Positions 5,691 through 50,985 of a stretch of DNA of 64,000 nucleotides are shown here, in pieces; the stretch's first letter is position 1, and every line of letters begins with the position of its first letter. A model generated the notes under the pieces. The model was not told where the DNA came from and made no database searches. It was given only the letters and a program-made list of their open reading frames with translations. Origin of the DNA: Agapetus fuscipes. Its lineage: Eukaryota > Arthropoda > Insecta > Trichoptera > Glossosomatidae. The stretch spans positions 6,061,852 to 6,125,851 of the forward strand of contig OX637350.1 of assembly GCA_951799405.1 (NCBI GenBank), read 5' to 3'. The translations under genes were made by a program, and so were the position numbers.

Positions 5691-7746
5691 AGCAGCTGCT
5701 TTTGATTCTGCTCATCACTTTCTATTGCCTTTTTAGTATTTATTAAGACCACCTGACTATGCAAACAGGACGTTTGCCAAACCGGTTGTGGATATTTAAT
5801 CATACTAAAAAGCAATAAAAAAAAATAGCTTCATTTCTATCTGTTGAAATGAAAGATTATTAAAGGTAATACCTTTACAATAAATGAAACTCAAACACGT
5901 TTTTATGAGCAGAGGTTAGTTCCATTTAATAAAACTGAGAGTAGTAACGTTGCTTCGAAAATATTAAGTGATGCGAAAATTTGTTAATAAAGTTGGTATG
6001 AATACAAAGATCGAGAGTAATGCTTTCGCGGGTACTACTCTCGGTAGGTTTTCGAATAAAAATTGTTTTTTTTATTGTATAAATAAACAAAGCTTTGAGT
6101 ATGATGCTCTTTTTCAATATGTAAAACAGTTCAATAGATAAAATAACAAATATTTTGTAGCTATGAAAAAATAATCACACAAAAAAAATGGACGGGCTTA
6201 AAAATGTAGTATATAATAACATTATGCTGACTTTCAAAGTATTAAGGTTAACTCAGAAAATGAGTGAAATAATAAGAAAGAAAATACAATTAAATTAAAC
6301 AAGTGAAATCTTTTTCAGGACAACAGCAGCGGGGTTTAGTTAAGATTGAAAAGTTTAAGAATAAATCACATAGCGTTGTGTTGTAATTTTTTAAGCCGCT
6401 CCTCCTTATATAAGCAGGTCGGCGCTAGGGGCGACAAACAGAAGGACGTGTCGCGTCGCTAAGCCAGCCTCCGCCGACAGTCTACTCTCCTTAACTTTAT
6501 CTCATTAAAAATTAATTAAGTAATACGGGCGAATTAAAATACAGAGCCATAAATTATTTTTTCGCGAAATAATAAATTAAGACGAGAAGAGTGTGAGGGA
6601 AACAGGCATTAGTTGAAATGAATAAAGTTTTTTTATATTTTTTTTGCGAGACGGAAAAAATAGCATTCCCAAAAATTAGAAAGTTTGCGATGCTAATAAA
6701 TTTCTGTAACACGATTTTCAACACAGTTTTTTACGGAGATTATCACGAAAAAAATGTGCAGTCAATTTGAAAATGAAGTTTTCTTAATTAAAGGAACTGA
6801 TTCAATTAAGATTTGAAAGCATAAAATTTTTGAAATGAAAATAGTTGAGACGTTTTTGAATGGCTTTTGCAGTCATGTGAAAAGATAAAAACGTTAAAAG
6901 AGAAGTTATGAAGTAGAGGCTTTGAAACTGCGTGTCACGGTGATTTAAGTATTTTGAGTGTTTTCTATTTAACCGCGAAGTTTGTTGGTCTCACAAGCCC
7001 TGATATCCCATTAGCATGTGCGTTGGTGCGAGACATAAAATAAAAGTTTCATTGTAGCTGCGAAAGAGATTTTTTTTGTAATATTTTTTGAAAAGCACGC
7101 TATAAAAAAACAGAATAAATTGCATGCAATTGAAAAGGTCACCAATGAAACGAAAGGTTATATGAGACGCTATACGGGGTAAACTCCAGGGGACTGAAGT
7201 AAGGGCAAATTCTGTAGAGTGCGTAACCTTTTAAGGCTTTATTTAGGTTGCAAACACTTTGTTTGTTCACAGTGCAATAAATTGGCTTTTGAACATCCCT
7301 TTCTTGCTAAACTTTATAGGTTTTCCGCGTTTAAGGAAAAAGGTTTAAAGACAAATAAGAAAACAGTACAATTTGCTCTACGCTAACCGCAGCAAATTTA
7401 ATATGTGATACATTATTTTAACTTATGGTAAAAATATGGTTGAAACTGAAGGGTGGTTTTCTGGATCTGTTACCGTGGTCATTTGGAGTTGAAGCTTCGG
7501 GACGCACAGTCCATATTTTATATGAACGGATTAAGGGTAATATTAAAATTGTTAAACAATGCGTTACCATTTTCTTCAACATCATAATATCATCACAGTG
7601 TTGAACAGACCTATTGCAGATAGAAGCAAGACATCCTTTCGATGGACAACGGTAACCAATGGTGGAGACCAACCCTTCAGTGTCTCCACTGGCCATGAAA
7701 GTTAAAACATTTCTGAGAATTTTTGAATTTCTGCTTCTCATTCCTA
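5691..7746. other. intronic DNA with one TATA-like GC-rich patch
   Basis: AT-rich except 6395-6490, where TATATAAG (6407-6414) precedes a GC-rich stretch. A 122-codon minus-strand frame (7418-7786) starts inside the S1 SINE; no domain was recognised. Confidence 0.45.
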
Positions 7747-8196
7747 ACGAAACGACGTTAGCCATGTTGAAAGCACCGGTTCCCATAGATCACCGAAGTT
7801 AAGCAACATTGGGCGTGGTCAGTGCTTGGATGGGTAACCGCTCAGGTACACCGCGTGTCGTTGGCATCTTGGACCGGTCCGTAGTCCGTAGTGGCAACAC
7901 TTCGGACTCGTAAATGGAAGGTTGTGGATTCGGATCCCGGCGGAGCACAAAAATATACCATTTATATTTCGAATATGCTCTTCGCTGGGTTGAAAAATTC
8001 ATAAACCTTTACCAATGACCGGTCACCAAAGGTCCATCCAGCCTTACAGCAACTGGGTCTTGCTTGAGTATTGGCGCTTTGTAGCGACGACCAAGCTCGT
8101 ACACCTCTGCGGCACTACAACAAGTGTCATAGACCCCTAGAATCTCTAGAATCTAAGGAGTCTCCCGCACAGGATTTCTTTTAAAAAAAAAAAAAC
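7747..8196 (+). mobile_element. S1 SINE, chimeric 5S rRNA + tRNA head, polyA tail
   Basis: The order is as follows. 7747-7867 is 5S-rRNA-derived, with CATGTTGAAAGCACCGGTTC, GATCACCGAAGTTAAGCAAC, the box C equivalent TGCTTGGATGGGTAACCGC, and an ACCGCGTGTCGTTGGCAT 3' end. 7868-7945 is tRNA-like, with A-box-like TAGTCCGTAGTGG and B-box-like GGATTCGGATCC. 7946-8095 is the S1 body shared with other copies. 8096-8182 is a variant tail, and A13 lies at 8183-8195. A pol III-transcribed retroposon is inferred. AmnSINE1-type SINEs are a known precedent for a 5S-tRNA chimera. Confidence 0.85.
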
Positions 8197-9996: not shown

Positions 9997-10330
9997 TGTA
10001 GTTTTTTAAATTTTTTACTGTTTAATTGTTTAGAGTTTATTTGTTTTATATATTTGAATGTATAAATTGCTTGTATTCCTTGACTGATAGGTTGGTATGC
10101 GACTGACCACTCATACTGTAAAAAATGGTTCACTTTGCCAATGTCACCCCTGCTTCAGGGAAGGTCGGCAAGAGTTGCAGGGCCTATGTTAATTTGAGAT
10201 TGGGTTTTTTATATTGTAGGTCCACATGCGGCATGTGTAAGCGCGAAATTAAGCACGGTTGCTTGTGGGAATGCATTTAAAATGAATCTCAAAGATACAT
10301 ATCTTTGCAGCTTAGATTTAGATTTGGATT
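9997..10330 (+). mobile_element. family A repeat (A1), long 5' form
   Basis: The standard body starts at 10075 (ATTCCTTGACTGATAGGTTG) and ends in GCTTAGATTTAGATTTGG. About 75 bases upstream (GTTTTGTAGTTTTTTAAAT..., TTTGTTTTATATATTTGAAT) are shared with the copy at 57939-58262. A longer version of the element therefore exists. Confidence 0.8.
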
Positions 10331-20728: not shown

Positions 20729-20740
20729 GATAAACGTACT

Positions 20741-21195
20741 TTTTTTTTAAAGAAATCTTGTACGAGAGACTCCCTAGATTCTAGAGACTCTAGGGGTCTA
20801 TGGACACTTGTTGTAGTGCCGCAGAGGTGTACGAGCTTGGTTGTCACTACAAAGCGCCAATACTTAAGCAAAACCCAGTTGCTGTAAGGCTGGATGGATC
20901 ATTTAGTGACCGGTCTTTGGTAAAGGCTTTATGATATTTTTTCAACCCAGCGAAGAGCATATTTGGAAATATAAATGGTAGGTATATTTTTGTGCTTCGC
21001 CGGGATCCGAATCCACAACCTTCCATTTACGAGTCCAAAGTATTGCCACTGGACTACGGACCGGTCCAAGATGCCAACGACACGCGGTGTACCTGAGCGA
21101 TCACTCATCCAAGTAGCATCCGCGCCCAATGTTGCTTAACTTCGGTGATCTGATGGGAACCGGTGCTTTCAACATGGTATCGTCGTTGCAAACAT
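20741..21195 (-). mobile_element. S1 SINE, chimeric 5S rRNA + tRNA head (second copy)
   Basis: This is the minus-strand copy of the 7747 element with the same module order. The 5S part (21071-21195) extends further 5' and begins with GCAACGACGATACCATGTTG, very close to a normal 5S rRNA start. The tRNA-like part is at about 20996-21066. The tail and polyT (as seen on plus) are at 20741-20760. Substitutions relative to the first copy are spread evenly, so it is an independent old insertion. Confidence 0.85.
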
Positions 21196-22274: not shown

Positions 22275-22586
22275 GATACCAATTCGACCAGTCCGTAGTC
22301 CAGGTGGTAACACTTCGGACTCGTAACTGGAAGGTCGTGGGTTCGAATCCCGGCGGAGCACAAAAAATATACCATTTATATTTTCAAATTTGCTCCTGCT
22401 GGGTTGAAAAATTCATAAACCTTTACCAAAGACCGGTCATCAAAAAGGTCCATCCAGCCTTACAACAGCTGGGTCTCGCTTGAGCGCTTTCTACAGCGAC
22501 GACCAAGCTCGCAGAGGGCTCTTGAGGTGTGATACACACAAAAACAGCGCTCACCAAATAAATCAGCCTAATTTTTTTTTTTTTTT
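22275..22586 (+). mobile_element. S1 SINE without 5S head, with L2-type 3' tail
   Basis: The tRNA-like head (22286-22352) has a canonical B box GGTTCGAATCC. The same body follows, and then a different 3' tail: AGAGGGCTCTTGAGGTGTGA, then TACACACAAAAACAGCGCTC, ending in AATAAATCAGCCTAATT and polyT. The tail matches the 3' UTR of the L2-like LINE at 23709-23810, so this subfamily is probably mobilised by that LINE. Confidence 0.85.
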
Positions 22587-23342: not shown

Positions 23343-23810
23343 CTCAAGCTTCACATCACTCCGCTGTTAAAAACACTACATTGGCTTCGTTTCCCGGAGA
23401 GGGTGGTCTACCGTGTTTGTGTGATGGTATATAAAGCCATCAATGGCTTGGCTCCACCTTATTTGACTGACATGATGTTGCCTGTTGAGATGGGTGTAAG
23501 GAGGCAGACACTCAGATCCGCGGGCGATGAAGTGGTCAATTTGGTTCAGCCACGCCGTCAGATTCGTACAAATTTTGGAGACCGCGCTTTCCGTGTTGCG
23601 GGTCCGGTGGAGTGGAACAGACTGCCACCCGGAGTGAAAAACTCCAAATCTATGGATGTATTTCGCGGAGCACTCAAGACACACCTATTTAGAAAGTCTG
23701 ATCCATGATCGGAGAGGGCCCTTGAGGTGTGACACACACAAAAACGGCGCTCTCTTATCATTTGTAATTTAAAATAAATTAGCCTGATATTATTATTATT
23801 ATTCACAAAA
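23343..23810 (+). pseudogene. L2/CR1-like LINE: C-terminal RT fragment plus 3' UTR
   Basis: One open frame from about 23343 to the stop at 23708 reads HITPLLKTLHWL..., then VYKAINGLAPPYL, NFGDRAFRVAGPVEWNRLPP and FRGALKTHLFRKSD. This is the conserved C-terminal tail of L2/CR1-type reverse transcriptases (HWLP..R, YKAL.G.APPYL, GDRAFS.A.P..WN.LP, FK..LKTHLF). The 3' UTR (23709-23810) contains a GAGAGGGCC...GGCGCTCTC stem, a GTGTG/CACAC inner hairpin, and a (ATT)n tail. The same tail is found on S1 SINEs. It is heavily 5' truncated. Confidence 0.85.
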
Positions 23811-36544: not shown

Positions 36545-36918
36545 TGTTTGTTTGGCAGGCCTGTGATACCCGCCGGCTTATGAGCGGTGTGACTGAGGCT
36601 TTGTTACACTAACTGGCACAGAATTATCGCTAATATGCGCTTCCGATATGATTAGCTGGCAGAGTGTTGGCTCGCTGTTAATGCGAATTTGATTACTTGT
36701 CATCCGCGTGGTCCACATTAAAGTTGCCACAGATGAGGATTCTGCTGAATGGTTAGTGGAAATTGGTAAGTGACAAGTACCAAGTGGTAAATGTTTAGTA
36801 ATAAATGGCGAGTAGTAAGCAGAAAATAAAAATGGTATATTTTTTGCTCCACCGGGAATCAAACCCACAACCTTCCCATTCAGAGTTCGAAGTGTTACCA
36901 CTGAACTGTTGACCGGTC
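36545..36918 (-). mobile_element. S1-headed tRNA SINE with a different body
   Basis: On the minus strand, GACCGGTCAACAGTTCAGTGG ... GGTTGTGGGTTTGATTCCC is the S1 tRNA-like head. The S1 phrase AAATATACCATTT follows. The rest (CTGCTTACTACTCGCCATTT... down to about 36545) is unrelated to the other S1 bodies, so it is either a different subfamily or a chimera. The left boundary is not resolved. An open frame of 107 codons here (36578-36901) is not thought to be a gene. Confidence 0.6.
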
Positions 36919-38850: not shown

Positions 38851-40984
38851 GTAAAAATGTATGTCATTGTGATTGCGTTAGCCGTTTTGTCATTAGTAAA
38901 TTACCAAATGGGAGTAGAAAAGGTATTTTTTTAAATGTATGGTCACAAAGTTGATGCCTTATAAATGAAGGATTTCAAATGTCAATTTATTTTATTAGAT
39001 GAATTTAGGCACTAACATTTTATTTTTTATTTATTTAAAAATAGGGGAAGATATTTGGTGTATTATATTTAAGGCGTGCTGCTAAGCTGGGTATCTTGAA
39101 CGCGAACCTTCTTAGAGCGGTATTTAAAAACACGAAATCCGCGAGTTGACGTTCATCCGACATAATGACTAAATCTTACAAAAATAATTATTAAATATAC
39201 TGTAAGCTGACATACAGCTGGGGTAGGATTATTATTCATATATTTTATTTTTTTTCCATTTAAAAATCTATATTTGTTTTCACATTCAAGTATAAATATT
39301 TATTACCTAGTGTTGTAGCTGTTCCGTGTGAATGCTTTGAAAGGAATGATAACAAGGTTGATGAAATAAGAAATGTAAGTTTCTGTGTGTAATTTGAAAG
39401 TGATAAATTATTCCCATTTCCCGGCGTGCGTTGAAGAGCATTAAAGTGGTTTTTATACTTGTAGTATCCACGCGTAGAGCCGGCTAAAGTTTTTAGTGTA
39501 GGCATTAAACTGACGCGAATATATTGGTTCATATTTCAATCGAGATAAAAAAGTTTGAGCCGAGGTGAAGACACATCGCGCCAATTTAACTTAAACTTAG
39601 TTAAAGTGGAAAGGATCGCTTTATGGGGTTGGTTTCCTGTGTTGTGGTGAGCGGGAGGGAGCAGGCGGCGAGGTGGGGGACGTGCAGGAGGAAAGAAGAC
39701 AGAACATCGCCACGTGTCCCTCTCTCCCCGAGAAAAGCCTTTAAGGGGATAAGAGGAAGTTTGCGATATTGGAATGAAACATTTAATATTTATGAAGTTG
39801 TGAATAAGACACGAAACCTTTATGTGCTCCATATTGAAACGTTATTTGCATGCAAATGCAACTTTTTTGTTCCCAGACGATCTAGCCGAACGGCGAAATC
39901 TTTTAACGTGCTTCGAATGTATTCAATGTGCGATGATGTAGAAATAAAAGCTCCGCAGCGTATGTGTGCGGCGCTTCCCGAGGATTACCGACGATTTAAG
40001 TTGCACAATTTGTAACCGAGTTTTATGATTGCCTACGAAAGATTTTTATCTATCAGAGACTTACCTAGGCAGGGAAGATATCTTGTATTCAATATCGGAA
40101 ATAACAATATGTTTTTAAATAACATTGTAGAGATTTCAGTTAAATGTAGCGGAAGCATTTGAGAAAACAGTCAAGCTTATATTTTAATCTAAAGTTGAAA
40201 TTGCGGCTGTAATACCTGCTGCGAGAAGGGAAAGATATTCCGTTTTATAGCTCACAAAAGTCAAATGCAACAAAGCGAATCAAGCGTTAGTCAGCGCGAT
40301 TCCGGGCCGCCATAACGATCTGAATTTTTAGATTTGCAGCTTTTCGATACTTTGAAGGGGAAAAGTTTTAGCAGTAACCGTTCGTATGAAATAAGAATTC
40401 CAAAGGAAAGCACGCATTGCTAGATGCCGCGCTTCTCGGAGTGCAGTACTAAGGTCTGCTGCACATACATGAATAATGATCCAAAAATGGCTATTTTTCT
40501 GCCATCAATTAATGCGTTTGGTAAACATTTAGTTTCACAACTGTTTCCCATGTGCAAGATTTCCGTACGATAAAAATAAAACGTTTGGTAAATACATTTT
40601 CGATAGAAATTTAGTAACTAAACGTTTTGAAAAATAAGTAGGTAAGATGATAAATGTTACAAAACTTCTAAGATATAAACATTTTCAAGTGACAAAAACA
40701 CAAACATTTTTCACTAAGCTATTCAACTAAAAATATATAAACGTGTTTAAAGTAGTGGATTGTATTTTCCATAGTAATATGAAATGTAGGAGAAATTCGG
40801 AAGGAAGTTGGCATCATTACGGCATTAAGTAAAGTGCCCAACTTTATCCATCAAAATTCTAGTTTCTTTTATTCTTGTTTACTTTCGGAACTCACGAGAG
40901 GCAAAAAGGTAATAAAAAAGAGAAAACGGTAAATAATGCGGGACAAACGTGGCTGGTCCTTTGACTACCGGAATCAAACTGAGC
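38851..40984. other. intronic DNA with one long unrecognised open frame
   Basis: 39623-40015 is open for 130 codons on plus, starting with ATG, in GC-richer sequence. The product is basic with no domain I recognise. The rest is AT-rich. Confidence 0.4.
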
Positions 40985-41118
40985 CCTACCAGACCAAACC
41001 AAGCCAAACCAAACCAAATGAAACCAAACTAAACCAAGCCAAGCCAAACCAAATAAAACCAAACTAAACTAAACCAAACTAAACCAAGCCAAACCAAACT
41101 AAACAAAACCAAACCATA
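40985..41118. repeat. degenerate (CCAAA)n simple repeat
   Basis: A run of ACCAAACCAAGCCAAACCAA-type pentamers about 130 bp long, C on one strand only. Confidence 0.9.
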
Positions 41119-41450
41119 AGTCCTTAAGAAGGCGAGTAACAAAATAGTGAAAATATGCAATGAAAAACAATACAATAAATAGTGCAGAGTGAAAAATTAC
41201 ATTACTTTTGTTAAAAAAAAATTGTTGTTGAAAAATACTCGATACAAAGTATAATTTTAAGTAGGTACTTATGCGTAAAATTAAATGCAGGAACAAATAA
41301 AAAATAGTATTTTAAATATGAAAAACATTACTTTAAAACAAGAAAACATTAAGAATATCCGAACTATAAGTGAATATATTCTTTTTTAAACATAGATAAA
41401 ATGTTGCGCAAATAAACAAAGTAATAATAATAACATAAAAATAAATATTA

Positions 41451-50691: not shown

Positions 50692-50985
50692 AGTTAAACT
50701 TACGTAGTATAGTGGTAACGCCTCAGAATCGTTAATGGAATTTTATGAGTCTTAATCCTGGTGGAGCACAAAAAATGTACTAAGTATGCTCTTCGCTGGG
50801 TTGAATAATTCATATACCCTTACCAAAGACTGGTCACTAAAAGTCCATTCAGCCTTACAGCAATTGGGTCGTGCTTAAGAATTAGCGCTTTTTATAGCGA
50901 CGACCAAGCTTACAAAGGGCTCTTGATGTGTGATTCACACAAACACAGCGCTCACCAAATAAATAATCTTAAAATTGCTATAATA
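50692..50985 (+). mobile_element. S1 SINE, degenerate, L2-type tail
   Basis: The head has GTAGTATAGTGGTAACGCC (A-box region). The body GCTCTTCGCTGGGTTGAATA and CCAAAGACTGGTCACTAAAA matches the other S1 copies. The tail GGGCTCTTGATGTGTGATTC, then ACACAAACACAGCGCTC, matches the L2-like LINE tail. It ends in an ATT-rich tract. Confidence 0.8.

Follow-up and report, generated by a model that had tools for sequence, protein, structure and literature searches.

5S-headed and dimeric SINEs described previously

The closest described architecture is that of AmnSINE1, a member of the DeuSINE superfamily of amniotes, whose modules are listed in a figure legend as a 5S-derived promoter, a tRNA-derived region, the Deu-domain and a 3' tail (PMC3234267), an order also given in a quotation of Nishihara et al. 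(PMC6337102). In moths, HaSE3 of Helicoverpa armigera and related noctuids has a 5S head together with a body and tail common to a tRNA SINE, for which template switching was proposed (PMC3272025), and 5S heads are also reported for PxSE4, PxSE5, LaSE2, CsSE2 and other lepidopteran SINE3 elements (PMC8010984, PMC10886601). PxSE4 and PxSE5 have a common 5' part and different 3' ends (PMC8010984). The tails of HaSE3 and PxSE5 resemble HaRTE1.1 or PxLINE1.1 (PMC3272025, PMC8010984), and simple-repeat tails are described for HaSE1 and HaRTE1.1, (TGA)n (PMC3272025), and for PxSE4 and CsSE2, (TGA)n, and PxSE5, (ATGT)n (PMC8010984). The excerpted text on HaSE3 gives a 5S part, a HaSE1-like body and an RTE-like tail and makes no mention of a tRNA head (PMC3272025); the passages on PxSE4, PxSE5, LaSE2 and CsSE2 likewise mention none behind the 5S, and it is by these descriptions that we set them all apart from the elements reported here. 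Sbg9 of Blattella germanica is likewise a dimeric insect SINE but is composed of Sbg1 and Sbg8, the heads of which are described in the available text as tRNA fragments, with no 5S (PMC9191728). A table of the pink bollworm cadherin locus lists a HaSE3 match (HaSE3 112-152) 16 bp upstream of a SINE2 match in the same orientation; this pair is only a lead, the accessible parts of the paper being silent on whether HaSE3 112-152 is 5S (PMC4026531). Within the open-licence PubMed Central literature, in the portions available to us, we found no description of an insect SINE that retains a tRNA head behind a 5S head.

We analysed a 64,000-nt stretch of the Agapetus fuscipes genome (the window), in which the first-pass annotation had proposed a SINE with fused 5S rRNA and tRNA heads and had named AmnSINE1-type elements as its precedent. 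The precedent is apt: as in AmnSINE1, a 5S part is followed by a tRNA-derived part, a central domain or body and a 3' tail (PMC3234267). The differences are that the LINE partner listed for AmnSINE1 is of CR1 type (PMC3747384) and that AmnSINE1 is old, with about 1000 identifiable human copies (PMC6337102), whereas the Agapetus elements include a young subfamily with poly(A). The suggestion that such a fusion would be notable in an insect holds for the keeping of both heads, but no further, because 5S-headed moth SINEs (HaSE3, PxSE4, PxSE5, LaSE2, CsSE2) had been published; judged by those descriptions, the novelty here is that both heads are kept. It is quite unlikely that we are dealing with HaSE3 or PxSE4/5 in another species. 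Those elements too join a 5S head to the body of a tRNA SINE, but their published text, as far as available, passes from 5S to body and tail, whereas here a tRNA-derived part of about 75 nt lies between (a comparison with the HaSE3 text, not an alignment); and in place of an RTE-like tail with TGA repeats, as in HaRTE1.1, the tail here has its match in another LINE-type end and is closed by poly(A), again by description.

Our preferred reading, to which we assign a probability of roughly 0.8, is a five-module SINE family that arose by one fusion, in which the 5S promoter took over, and which moves as a unit and is copied with the aid of a LINE. Its basis in the sequence is the unit itself, the common joint, a 5' end at 5S +1, the states of the tRNA boxes and the two tails.

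Structure of the 5S/tRNA SINE copies in the window

Both window copies have the order 5S, tRNA-derived head, body, tail and poly(A), with no gap after the 5S (Table 1). The proposed 5S head was confirmed by full-length matches, positions 1-120 of the Rfam 5S_rRNA model being covered at 7748-7865 (+) in copy 1 (66.8 bits, E 7.1e-12) and at 21072-21190 (-) in copy 2 (88.0 bits, E 1.8e-17). These E-values and the genomic copies described below exclude a chance resemblance to 5S. A plain 5S gene or pseudogene was also rejected: 12 gene-like 5S places elsewhere in the genome differ in their 3' end, have T-rich flanks and carry no tRNA part. Aligned over 451 columns, the two copies show 90.7% identity and, as the first-pass annotation had noticed, share an identical joint, GTTGGCATCTTGGACCGG. 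The elements it placed at 7747-8196 and 20741-21195 (minus strand) are thus real, with limits that we amend to those of Table 1. The start of copy 1 was set at 7751 because genomic copies begin with GTC followed by AACGACG or near-variants; copy 1 itself lacks the first three nucleotides (GTC) of this family 5' end.

The tRNA-like module, described initially as carrying A and B boxes, stands as a tRNA-derived head with a body, but its boxes are damaged. The A box of copy 1 is interrupted, both copies depart from the B box at two positions, and ARAGORN found no tRNA gene within the window; with lowered cut-offs, the consensus of the family yielded no more than a weak tRNA-Thr(CGT)-like fold.

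Palindromes occur at the SINE 5' end at L006:1484-1513 and at window 7744-7761 (GGCTAACGTCGTT-TGTC-AACGACGTTAGCC and CTAACGA-AACGACGTTAG), and they look as if the cDNA end had snapped back at insertion.

Table 1 Features of the window, with coordinates counted from its first nucleotide.
Feature	Position	Strand	Evidence
5S+tRNA SINE copy 1, young subfamily, poly(A) included	7751-8195	+	Rfam match; 39 other scored genomic matches, 98-99%
5S rRNA-derived head, copy 1	7751-7865	+	Rfam RF00001 (match 7748-7865); genomic 5S consensus as comparison
Joint, copy 1: 5S trailer remnant ATCTT (older copies mostly ATTTCTT)	7866-7871	+	
tRNA-derived head, copy 1	7872-7948	+	
A-box remnant TAGTCCGTAGTGG, tRNA head of copy 1	7882-7894	+	
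B-box remnant GATTCGGATCC, tRNA head of copy 1	7927-7937	+	
Body, copy 1; common to the 5S-less sister family	7949-8099	+	
3' tail, copy 1; matches a LINE-type 3' end	8100-8182	+	
Poly(A), copy 1	8183-8195	+	
5S+tRNA SINE copy 2, older; A box intact, B box with 2 mismatches	20740-21190	-	
LINE-type tail, copy 2	20750-20831	-	
tRNA head and body, copy 2	20832-21066	-	
5S head, copy 2	21072-21190	-	Rfam
Sister SINE without 5S (family T): intact tRNA boxes, same body, other tail	22283-22586	+	
LINE 3' end, ORF C-terminus ...FRGALKTHLFRKSDP and stop, then sister-tail match at 23713-23752	23343-23771	+	
Open LINE ORF, 1107 aa	25140-28463	+	Reverse transcriptase domain (RVT_1), E 3.8e-37; endonuclease match weak, below Pfam cut-off
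5S-less copy: tRNA head and start of body	36822-36918	-	
Older sister SINE without 5S	50702-50972	+	

Genomic copies and abundance

The host assembly (618 Mb, 148 contigs) was searched with copy 1, which gave 2719 first-look candidates. The best 40 were scored. They comprise copy 1 and 39 further matches, which agree with it at 98-99% (98-100% over the full set); each covers the query from position 12, and they lie on many contigs; picked by score, they are full length by choice and prove a young subfamily, not the average age of the copies. Thirty copies were fetched (L001-L030, copy 1 included), and the 29 besides copy 1 each have 1 to 4 differences from the consensus outside its last 25 columns. 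All of these 29 (L002-L030) begin with GTC followed by AA, GTC being the start of the 5S at its nt 1.

Five further copies with the joint were met by chance, in the flanks of L018, L021, L045 and L054 and in an arbitrary 60 kb sample (L065), with 5S parts 86-100% like the young 5S. Five per roughly 234 kb would correspond to a copy number on the order of 10,000, a rough estimate drawn from 58 loci with 3 kb flanks plus the 60 kb, in which SINE flanks are a nonrandom sample and the arbitrary sample holds one copy. A short copy at L065:7408-7590 has a complete young 5S and the first part of the tRNA head, followed by AAAAACTTG repeats.

The elements are thus short, dispersed and present as numerous near-identical copies, with a head derived from polymerase III genes (5S and tRNA-like); the 5S-derived 5' head with box A, IE and box C is that of the SINE3 class.

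A common joint and a probable single fusion

The joint was present in all 45 element places examined whose 5S head reaches the 3' end, namely the 30 copies L001-L030, copy 2, the five chance copies and nine from a search with the 5S family; L032:1364-1402, the start of a 5S only, was left out of this count, L026 and L030 have similar left flanks and are perhaps not independent, and in three copies (two of L001-L030, plus L080) point changes depart from the joint pattern, the joint being present on reading. From 17,830 first-look candidates in the 5S search, 47 were scored, and 22 of the scored places were read. Among the 13 places read at the outset, 12 were gene-like, giving the host 5S sequence, and one was an element (L074, the same as L077); the ten read further, L077 included, comprised nine 5S+tRNA elements and one 5S copy without SINE (L082). 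Many of the scored 5S places lie within C28:6.42-7.05 Mb, several as close inverted pairs, and others are dispersed on further contigs.

Relative to the 12 gene-like places, the elements share the 5S changes C111T and T119A. That these changes are common to the elements points to a fusion that happened once. The 5S of the elements continues as TTTCTT, CTTTTTT (L084) or (A)TCTT into the tRNA-derived sequence, with small deletions just behind the joint in L078 and L085. L084 (C29:5687200-5687318) is an old copy whose T6 run between 5S and tRNA head looks like an intact terminator. Outside the host, the joint pattern (an 18-mer) matched one viral and two bacterial contigs, which we took as chance, and the body pattern had no match in the viral collection.

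As to the making of the joint, we lean somewhat towards a template switch over an insertion behind a 5S gene. In the latter case a tRNA SINE would have landed downstream of a 5S gene copy, only a few bases away, with read-through giving the joined RNA. This is a serious contender, if the somewhat less probable one: the joint retains about 6 nt of T-rich sequence like that of genomic 5S flanks (e.g. L072, GGCT followed by TTTCTTTTTTTC), and the old copy L084 has its T6 run at the joint, but a 5S precursor RNA with a U-rich end would leave an identical joint, and no founder locus was seen among the 5S places read.

Movement as one unit

The flanks of 31 insertions were joined and compared with other loci. 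A related stretch spans the site in 8 of the 31; it is clean at the junction in five (L004, L009, L015, L018 and L027, with 71-95% identity and, in L027, long gaps elsewhere), and in the other three (L002, L006, L024) the junction is not clean-cut. The five clean related empty sites are empty of the whole unit, and the 5S+tRNA SINE therefore moves together.

Target duplications are short. Over 28 genomic copies outside the window, their mean best length was 3.86 nt against 2.17 nt in shuffled pairings, and none of 500 shuffles was as high (L030 was left out, its flanks resembling those of L026). In 12 of the 28 the duplication is absent or only 3 nt, and several copies have a few extra bases between the duplication and the SINE 5' end. 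The check for target duplications thus succeeded over the genomic copies, but none above chance was found at the two 5S copies or the three 5S-less copies of the window.

It had been claimed that the fusion precedes retroposition, a claim that would fall if the 5S and tRNA parts proved to be separate adjacent insertions. The common joint, the shared C111T and T119A and the clean whole-unit empty sites bear the claim out. Two neighbouring insertions, of a 5S retropseudogene and of a tRNA SINE, might coincide by chance in two copies of one window, but with the same joint in every place, on many contigs, and with the clean empty sites, we reject such an origin as having a negligible probability.

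The tRNA boxes and a probable change of promoter

A search with the 5S-less sister element (22283-22575) gave 3004 first-look candidates, of which 40 were scored and 30 read. The sister family starts with GACCGG at the position of the 5S family's joint, and across tRNA head and body its consensus is 91% like that of the young 5S family, the tails being unrelated. Scored against A and B box motifs that we assume to be the appropriate ones, the A box is exact in 30/30 and the B box in 27/30 sister copies, although these were taken as the top matches to a single intact-box copy, which biases the sample towards intact boxes. All 30 copies of the young 5S family have an insertion in the A box and a mismatched B box, and in the 14 older 5S-bearing copies the A box is exact in 11 and the B box in none.

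A type 1 promoter starts transcription at 5S +1, and the tRNA promoter here would start it about 120 nt downstream. The 5S head probably took over transcription, because both tRNA boxes are damaged throughout the young family and its 5' end coincides with 5S +1. By its sequence, the tRNA head of the young subfamily looks like a decaying passenger and not like a second working promoter. It appears rather improbable that the tRNA head remains the active promoter, with the 5S as an inert 5' extension. Such a promoter would accord with the exact A box of most older 5S-bearing copies and with copies that start near the tRNA start (L029:2166-2395, L065:1966-2194), but in complete copies the 5' end lies at 5S nt 1, about 120 nt ahead of the tRNA start, and in the young, near-identical copies both boxes are damaged in all 30. 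Because older copies retain an exact A box, the tRNA promoter may have been active long after the fusion.

Our preferred reading, a takeover by the 5S promoter, would run as follows. The reverse transcript of a tRNA-headed SINE would have switched template onto a 5S RNA that still had its U-rich trailer; the internal (type 1) promoter of the 5S would then have assumed control of transcription, with its start at 5S +1, and polymerase III could have read through because the T run that follows the 5S is broken; and the old tRNA promoter would have decayed. The SINE RNA would be copied by a LINE sharing its 3' end, by target-primed reverse transcription that leaves short target duplications.

Within limits of box A, IE and box C that we presume to be correct, the 5S control region of the young consensus is not clearly better kept than the remainder (box A 0/15 positions changed, IE 2/6, box C 3/18, rest 12/78), and special conservation is unsupported beyond box A. 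No T4 run occurs in the young consensus, but 15-26% of random sequences with the same composition lack one too, and a T4 run is present in both window copies; selection against T4 runs, considered as a further possibility, was dropped as not significant.

Tails, putative LINE partners and apparently recombinant copies

A repeat that was fetched from six places is matched by the tail of the 5S family at 91-94%. All six share upstream sequence that is absent from the SINE, and the tail is followed by an A run in five and by a T run in L094. In one of the six (L093) this upstream stretch forms an open frame whose C-terminus is SFLCQTARLWNELPVSVFPSQFNLALFKSNINRHFL, and we took it for a LINE by its appearance; a similar frame is present in L032, where the tail matches less well (76% over 57 nt). 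The SINE thus has a 3' end in common with a LINE-type end, plus poly(A). L052, tried as partner LINE of the 5S family, led in its search to hairpin-like repeats, and L022 was used instead.

The sister tail lies directly behind a LINE ORF C-terminus in the window (23713-23752) and in three of seven further places (L010, L053, L061:4630), the four others having no preceding LINE frame (L006, L011, L036, L061:9025). The LINE-type tails of the 5S family and the sister family differ. Three copies, L018, L045 and L054, combine the front of the 5S family with the sister's 3' end, the changeover falling inside the body at diagnostic sites, and look like recombinants. An order of events in which the 5S was added to a sister that already had its own tail, with the tail swapped later, was dropped, because, among copies that could be followed as far as the tail, those whose 5S is the most gene-like (L077, L078, L080, L081) have the other tail, and because these three copies look recombinant at the diagnostic sites.

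Other repeats in the window

The open LINE ORF of 1107 aa has a 3' end with ACAGT repeats, and proteins of Phthorimaea and Plutella are among its named relatives (45-49% identity in the searched part), others being bacterial; by these moth names the genome appears moth-like. A repeat family of ~250 bp, which opens with TTCCTTGACTTATAGG and closes with TTAGAT repeats, occurs at window positions 10075, 18577, 28500, 28943, 30626, 57223, 59851 and others; in L015 and L027, and apparently also in L006 and L025, a copy of the 5S SINE lies inside this repeat. A long hairpin at 4795-4904 matches the mir-786 model below the gathering score and is perhaps a MITE, and 40968-41131 holds a tandem repeat with ACCAA-type units.

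A SINE possibly changing its promoter class

With moderate confidence, we propose that a tRNA (type 2) SINE has here been caught changing its promoter class. One fusion would have given it a complete 5S (type 1) promoter and a new start site, with which it multiplied into a young family as its A and B boxes decayed; LINE tails would have been exchanged with the 5S-less sister by recombination, head and tail being separable modules, and the architecture of AmnSINE1 would have arisen a second time, in an insect. The gain of promoters by SINEs is mostly inferred from old, worn families. A single genome here holds an intact-box 5S-less sister, older 5S+tRNA copies with partly worn boxes, mixed copies, gene-like 5S and both LINE-type ends, and this set of forms therefore makes promoter takeover and partner exchange testable, by transcript mapping and comparative genomics.
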